In this document: piece after piece, positions 39,477-39,837 of the stretch
Layout: each line of letters opens with the position of its first letter
Position numbering within the stretch: position 1 is the first letter of the stretch
NCBI GenBank assembly: GCA_024761205.1
Contig: JAMASS010000009.1
Span: 92,905 to 132,741 of the forward strand
Source: Limisphaerales bacterium
GTDB lineage: Bacteria; Verrucomicrobiota; Verrucomicrobiia; Limisphaerales; AAA164-E04
Length of the DNA: 39,837 bases
Reading direction: 5' to 3'
The notes under the pieces: model-generated
What the model was told of the DNA's origin: nothing
Database searches by the model: none
Seen by the model: only the letters and a program-made list of their open reading frames with translations
Translations under genes and position numbers: made by a program

Positions 39477-39512
39477 CCCCCCGTTGCTGGGTTGTGGCGA
39501 GTGCCGCTATAC

Positions 39513-39837
39513 TGCTGGCTGTCTGTCTGTCTGGCTGTCTGTCTGTCTGTCTGTCTGTCTGTCTGGCTGTCTGGCTGTCTGGCTGTCTGGCTGTCTGGCT
39601 GTCTGTCTGTCTGTCTGTCTGTCTGTCTGTCTGTCTGTCTGTCTGGCTGTCTGGCTGTCTGGCTGTCTGGCTGTCTGGCTGTCTGGCTGTCTGGCTGTCT
39701 GTCTGTCTGGCTGTCTGGCTGTCTGGCTGTCTGGCTGTCTGGCTGTCTGGCTGTCTGGCTGTCTGGCTGTCTGGCTGTCTGGCTGTCTGGCTGTCTGGCT
39801 GTCTGGCTGTCTGGCTGTCTGGCTGTCTGGCTGTCTG
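39513..39837. repeat. Tetranucleotide repeat tract (GTCT/GGCT)
   Basis: At least 325 bp made only of 4-bp units GTCT and GGCT (on the minus strand AGAC and AGCC), running into the window end. The first part has runs of pure GTCT; the last part is mostly a strict 8-bp GGCTGTCT alternation. It lies upstream of the methyltransferase-nuclease fusion and outside its reading frame. Such tracts vary in copy number by slippage; true length is unknown because the sequence ends within it. Confidence 0.95.

Follow-up and report, generated by a model that had tools for sequence, protein, structure and literature searches.

A long AGAC/AGCC repeat tract upstream of a DNA methyltransferase gene: a possible phase-variation switch outside the reading frame

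Introduction

Could a very long tetranucleotide tract that ends just before the start of a DNA methyltransferase gene switch that gene from outside its reading frame, or is the tract a repeat that expanded there without effect? Short tandem repeats frequently turn genes on and off in a random manner. The initial annotation of this locus had described the tetranucleotide tracts of known mod genes as lying in frame. This holds for Haemophilus and Neisseria mod but is incomplete, as in Moraxella catarrhalis modO a CAACG(n) tract lies upstream of the ORF, and 10 repeats give 12–21 times the mRNA level seen with 9 or 11 (PMC7302503). An AGAT(n) tract upstream of M. catarrhalis uspA2 acts on transcription (PMC7302503), and N. 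meningitidis nadA carries a TAAA tract upstream of its promoter (PMC2791445). Among the rows listed in a table of H. influenzae tracts, mod has 12–32 units and the longest tract has 37 (PMC2651432). The C. jejuni enzyme Cj0031, a type IIG methyltransferase-nuclease in a single chain, is phase-variable (PMC4889913). That a tract can lie upstream of a methyltransferase gene is already known; what is unusual in the present case is the length of the tract and its host, an uncultured bacterium.

The repeat tract and its outer end

We analyzed a window of 39,837 bp (G000:C89:92905–132741; the contig runs on to 146209). A compound tetranucleotide tract of at least 80 units occupies positions 39515–39837 of the window on the minus strand and borders a 100-N scaffold gap. 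It was the sole tandem array that TRF found in the window (period 8, corresponding to two tetramers; 40.4 copies; 97% match), and a minus-strand parse of the same interval gave 80 tetramers, 50 AGAC and 30 AGCC, with zero interruptions. The window contained 75 overlapping AGMC-type 24-mers, compared to 0 in 100 dinucleotide shuffles and a chance expectation of zero. The array and the parse agree with the initial description of a minus-strand AGAC/AGCC tract of more than 320 bp, and together with the shuffles they show that the tract is real and not a product of chance. The ordered pattern noted earlier, short pure AGAC runs followed by AGAC–AGCC alternation, also reappeared in the parse: from the gene outward, AGCC with short AGAC runs is followed by alternating stretches, 11 AGAC units, further alternation and finally 16 AGAC–AGCC alternations. 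All reading frames of the tract are open, with no stop inside it.

The outer end of the assembled tract is probably an assembler limit rather than a natural end. The terminal, strictly period-8 run is 135 bp (127 + 8), the first recurring 127-mer finishes exactly at the final base of the sequence, and the 100 N follow directly; this is the point at which de Bruijn assembly would close a loop if k were 127, a value that we infer. Because the tract end coincides with the first repeated 127-mer and the N gap, 323 bp is a minimum length. The halt at exactly this 127-mer and the presence of the gap would also fit an assembly product, in which the assembler lengthened a bacterial repeat that is in fact much shorter, or joined the right-hand sequence incorrectly. 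The sequence to the right of the gap begins without repeat, and the genes that flank the tract lie ~0.69 Mb apart in a one-contig genus mate rather than next to each other, so synteny gives no check of the junction. We nevertheless consider an assembly product improbable: positions 39515–39702 are anchored, because the irregular AGAC/AGCC order makes every 77-mer in this segment unique, and an end cut at a loop predicts that the real tract is longer, not shorter. Within the 1.63 Mb surveyed there are only two gaps, and both bound this window, one on each side, each at a repeat.

The methyltransferase gene

The gene that follows the tract is intact (38034–39476, minus strand) and encodes 480 amino acids from GTG 39476 or 478 from TTG 39470. 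The distance from tract to start, put at ~35 bp in the initial annotation, measured ~38 bp to the GTG and ~44 bp to the TTG. An N6_N4_Mtase domain spans residues 36–292 (38601–39371, minus strand), with DPPF (residues 42–45) preceding FCGCGT (residues 262–267), the motif order of beta-class and type III Mod enzymes, and both motifs are invariant in a five-sequence alignment. Residues 342–409 (38250–38453, minus strand) form an Mrr-type PD-(D/E)xK-like domain in which GIDG is kept and QVK is present; at the latter position four homologues have SVK. The Pfam match of this domain to Mrr_cat is weaker than that to N6_N4_Mtase, and a further match is to an 'inactive REase' family. The domain content supports the methyltransferase-nuclease fusion that had been proposed, with the second part described as nuclease-like. 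From the sequence, we read the product as a methyltransferase with a nuclease-like domain, for which cleavage is only a predicted possibility.

Phages and plasmids carry homologues with this architecture, all at less than 60% identity. Gp42 of Mycobacterium phage Dori and MAFF_RS35095 of Mesorhizobium pMLa, for example, are the same two-domain protein with the same start region and are 39–44% identical to the window protein, which differs from both in a shorter target-recognition region and in having QVK where they have SVK. Annotated homologue starts lie 1–10 codons before the residue that matches residue 10 of the window protein. That these starts fall in the same region shows that the gene is complete and that no part of the enzyme is encoded by the tract. 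A TAG stop in the frame of the gene, at 39507–39509 (minus strand), lies between the tract and the start codon, and this stop and the homologue starts agree with the earlier placement of the tract outside the reading frame. The locus thus has the tandem short repeats of SSR phase-variable methyltransferase genes but not the classic translational arrangement, in which the repeat lies in the ORF and a change in unit number shifts the frame. The alternative that N-terminal coding sequence is missing across the tract is ruled out by the annotated homologue starts.

A Pfam scan of the neighbors on one side identified a sulfatase, an SSF transporter, HpaB and MaoC but no Res helicase-nuclease or restriction subunit; the separate Res gene that stands beside mod in type III R-M systems is absent among these scanned neighbors. 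On the other side of the gene, the gap is followed by a large conserved protein that is also present in genus mates. Close relatives of the methyltransferase gene were found neither in genus mates nor, by a close-relative search, in named genomes. The gene is accessory and was probably acquired horizontally. No such tract lies upstream of its paralogues and relatives. Dispersed paralogues are present on many contigs of the genome (L030–L037 and others, G000), and several share an internal stop (RYFADV*NIWDD) together with the upstream flank; apparently these stop-bearing copies either spread when already decayed or are recoded.

Promoter and leader models

Control by a change in promoter spacing, as initially suggested, is not supported. 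A tract of at least 323 bp is too long for any promoter to straddle, a −10/−35 pair flanking it was rejected on this ground, and the repeat does not lie between a −35 and a −10 element. At the gene-side edge of the tract, a CAGACA-16-TATAGC pair is a poor match. The −35-like CAGACA recurs every 4 or 8 bp within the tract, so its spacing to TATAGC is constant whatever the copy number. Beyond the gap, on the strand of the gene, there is a weak TAGACA-17-CAAAAT promoter-like match, and if this match is used, the tract would lie inside the transcript. Models that act on transcript level or on leader translation remain.

A G-rich Shine-Dalgarno-like stretch at 39482–39476 (minus strand) lies 5 nt before TTG 39470 and abuts GTG 39476; by this spacing, the TTG appears to be the better start. 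The three frames that exit the tract stop at the gene-frame TAG (39509–39507), at a TGA at 39469–39467 and at a TGA at 39432–39430. The second of these overlaps the TTG start candidate as TTGA (39467–39470, minus strand). Because the gene-frame TAG lies between tract and start, a change in repeat number can never fuse a leader to the enzyme, which rules out a leader ORF joined to the gene in this way. Such a change could, however, shift the stop of a putative leader ORF relative to the gene start. In a three-way switch of this type, a putative leader ORF through the tract would end, according to repeat number modulo 3, at the TAG 39 nt before the TTG, at the TGA overlapping it or at the TGA 38 nt after it, and only the TTGA phase would couple its translation to that of the gene. 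Consistent with this model, the stops of the three exit frames all fall in a stretch of ~80 nt around the gene start, and one is exactly at TTGA. The Shine-Dalgarno-like stretch 5 nt before the TTG also fits, as does the modO peak at 10 repeats, not 9 or 11 (PMC7302503), which is compatible with a modulo-3 effect. The tract, however, contains no start codon, the sequence upstream of it is gap, which leaves the leader ORF hypothetical, TTGA overlaps also arise by chance, and a literature search found no phase-variation precedent for the mechanism. We therefore regard a leader-frame switch as unlikely. The same low probability applies to its fuller form, a three-state switch in a bacterium that also has a 16-gene poly-C variable surface-protein family, with one phase in three coupling the methyltransferase-nuclease. 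An RNA hairpin that masks the start codon was rejected, as predicted structure was no greater than in shuffled sequences (z 0.44).

AGMC tracts in other genomes

A repeat survey of 1.63 Mb and pattern searches found no second tract of this kind in the same genome, and the tract was absent from 292 other genomes sampled in the order, including members of the genus and family. Public named genomes contain at least 120 stretches of 10 or more AGMC units; among the matches listed, the tracts span 40–120 bp, and nearly every one consists of a single unit type. For 88 of these stretches a neighboring long ORF could be assigned. The AGMC repeat lay on the sense strand of the adjacent gene in 74 of the 88, as in the window, although these listed loci are partly related and a nominal p-value is too small. 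R-M or BREX genes were the neighbors in 18 of these 74 cases among the matches listed (13 HsdS, 2 HsdM, 2 N6_N4_Mtase and 1 BrxA), a count that is a frequency without a background set rather than a tested enrichment. In this sense AGMC tracts in other genomes often stand beside restriction-modification genes, which lends support to the initial interpretation. A stop in the gene frame separated tract and gene in 33 of the 74, again as in the window. The nearest parallel among the matches listed is an HsdM gene (L316) with an upstream AGAC tract and an in-frame stop. Many of the listed AGMC tracts lie near unrelated genes of all kinds. AGAC tracts also occur in type I HsdS genes (L263, L295, L310, L314, L327 and others), several of which are apparently split by the tract into two half frames.

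Phase variation or a neutral repeat

The window locus resembles modO in that short tandem repeats lie upstream of, not within, a methyltransferase ORF. The modO tract, however, is a pentanucleotide repeat of 9–33 units for which variation and a transcript effect were measured, whereas the window tract is known from one assembly; modO is also a type III mod gene, in contrast to the single-chain MTase–Mrr fusion of the window. Haemophilus and Neisseria mod genes with AGCC or related tracts (e.g. HI1058; L299 of N. gonorrhoeae) share the repeat family and the N6_N4_Mtase domain with our locus, but their tracts lie within the ORF, with 12–32 units in the listed Haemophilus mod row, compared to at least 80 outside the ORF here. 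Like the window gene, Cj0031 joins a methyltransferase and a nuclease or nuclease-like part in one chain and has a repeat tract, and its phase variation is established; unlike the window gene, it has a poly-G tract inside the gene and an M.TaqI-like methyltransferase architecture. The AGAT(n) tract of uspA2 and the TAAA(n) tract of nadA are likewise tetranucleotide tracts upstream of a gene, with effects on transcription that belong to those systems (PMC7302503, PMC2791445), but they are much shorter, the genes encode surface proteins, and regulators are known for nadA.

We tentatively prefer, at somewhat less than even probability, phase variation of the complete methyltransferase gene from outside its reading frame, by way of a hypermutable-type microsatellite in the upstream region or 5′ leader. 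Slipped-strand mispairing would change the length of the tract, and this change would alter gene output from outside the reading frame, in the manner of the upstream tracts of modO and uspA2; we infer that the tract is hypermutable, that it influences expression and that it does so at transcript level or at leader translation. Several observations point to this reading: the reality of the tract (TRF, shuffles); a complete gene with motifs invariant among the five homologues and agreeing homologue starts; the R-M/BREX neighbors, sense-strand position and in-frame stops among the AGMC matches listed; by analogy, the precedents of modO, uspA2 and Cj0031; and, in the same genome, an independent gene family whose poly-C tracts differ in length. 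Other observations argue against it. A single assembly provides the length evidence, with one tract length, and the locus is absent from the relatives searched; past the tract the sequence breaks off in a gap, so that a promoter or leader ORF there is hypothetical, and the promoter-like match on the far side is weak. The tract is not conserved at paralogues and relatives of the gene, and many of the AGMC tracts listed lie near unrelated genes. At least 80 units is also far beyond published switch tracts (37 or fewer among the H. influenzae rows listed).

A neutral microsatellite that expanded beside an accessory gene, with expression of the gene from its own start independent of repeat number, is also a serious possibility, and the two readings are nearly balanced; phase variation is reasonable but unproved. 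The tract occurs once in the genome and once in 293 genomes of the order, it is not conserved among paralogues or homologues, it is unusually long and compound, as unconstrained expansion would give, and AGMC tracts are found near genes of all kinds among the matches listed. What a neutral repeat explains less well is the frequency of R-M genes beside AGMC tracts and the sense-strand bias of these tracts, both among the matches listed, and the closeness of the window tract to the start codon. If the tract varies, phase variation would add an upstream-type, exceptionally long switch to the phase-variable DNA methyltransferases. The switch would come from beyond the host-adapted pathogens that have been studied well, and from a genome in which surface proteins, too, seem to be varied by way of repeats; it would also warn that short-read assemblies conceal the true length of such tracts.

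Poly-C tracts in the same genome

The site CCCGAGTTTATCGCTTGAAGACAGAC has 16 copies in the genome, each at the start of a gene for a secreted PEP-CTERM, choice-of-anchor R protein; one copy of this 16-member family (L350–L365) lies in the window. Each copy is preceded, at one fixed 5′ site and with otherwise similar flanks, by a poly-C run of 7–20 C (7, 11–17, 20). The window copy (gene 18–789, poly-C 18–37, plus strand) has 20 C (modulo 3 = 2). When the run length is 1 modulo 3 (e.g. 13 C in L360), an upstream ATG frame reads through into the signal peptide; at 0 modulo 3 another ATG frame is joined, and at 2 modulo 3 no upstream ATG is visible. Judged by these frames, entry into the PEP-CTERM gene would depend on poly-C length, and the family looks like homopolymer contingency genes. 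For Akkermansia, a verrucomicrobium, phase variation at homopolymers has been suggested (PMC3048395), and the domain content of the present genome points to the PVC group, probably Verrucomicrobiota. The family speaks for repeat-based variation more strongly than the AGAC/AGCC tract itself does and makes such variation plausible in this organism, although assembly may have altered C-runs that lie at contig ends.

Just before the window, a G41-C-G8 run followed by a 10-N gap lies inside a PEP-CTERM poly-C site (G000:C89 92845–92904; L116 12845–12904), and L358 has a similar poly-G beside N10; the G41-C-G8 run with N10 is probably an assembly or sequencing artifact. Elsewhere in the genome, the leader of a prepilin-like GFTLIELL protein contains an in-frame G16 tract (L129 6563–6700; G000:C78), and a poly-G of 78 bases is found inside a contig (G000:C4 120703–120780).
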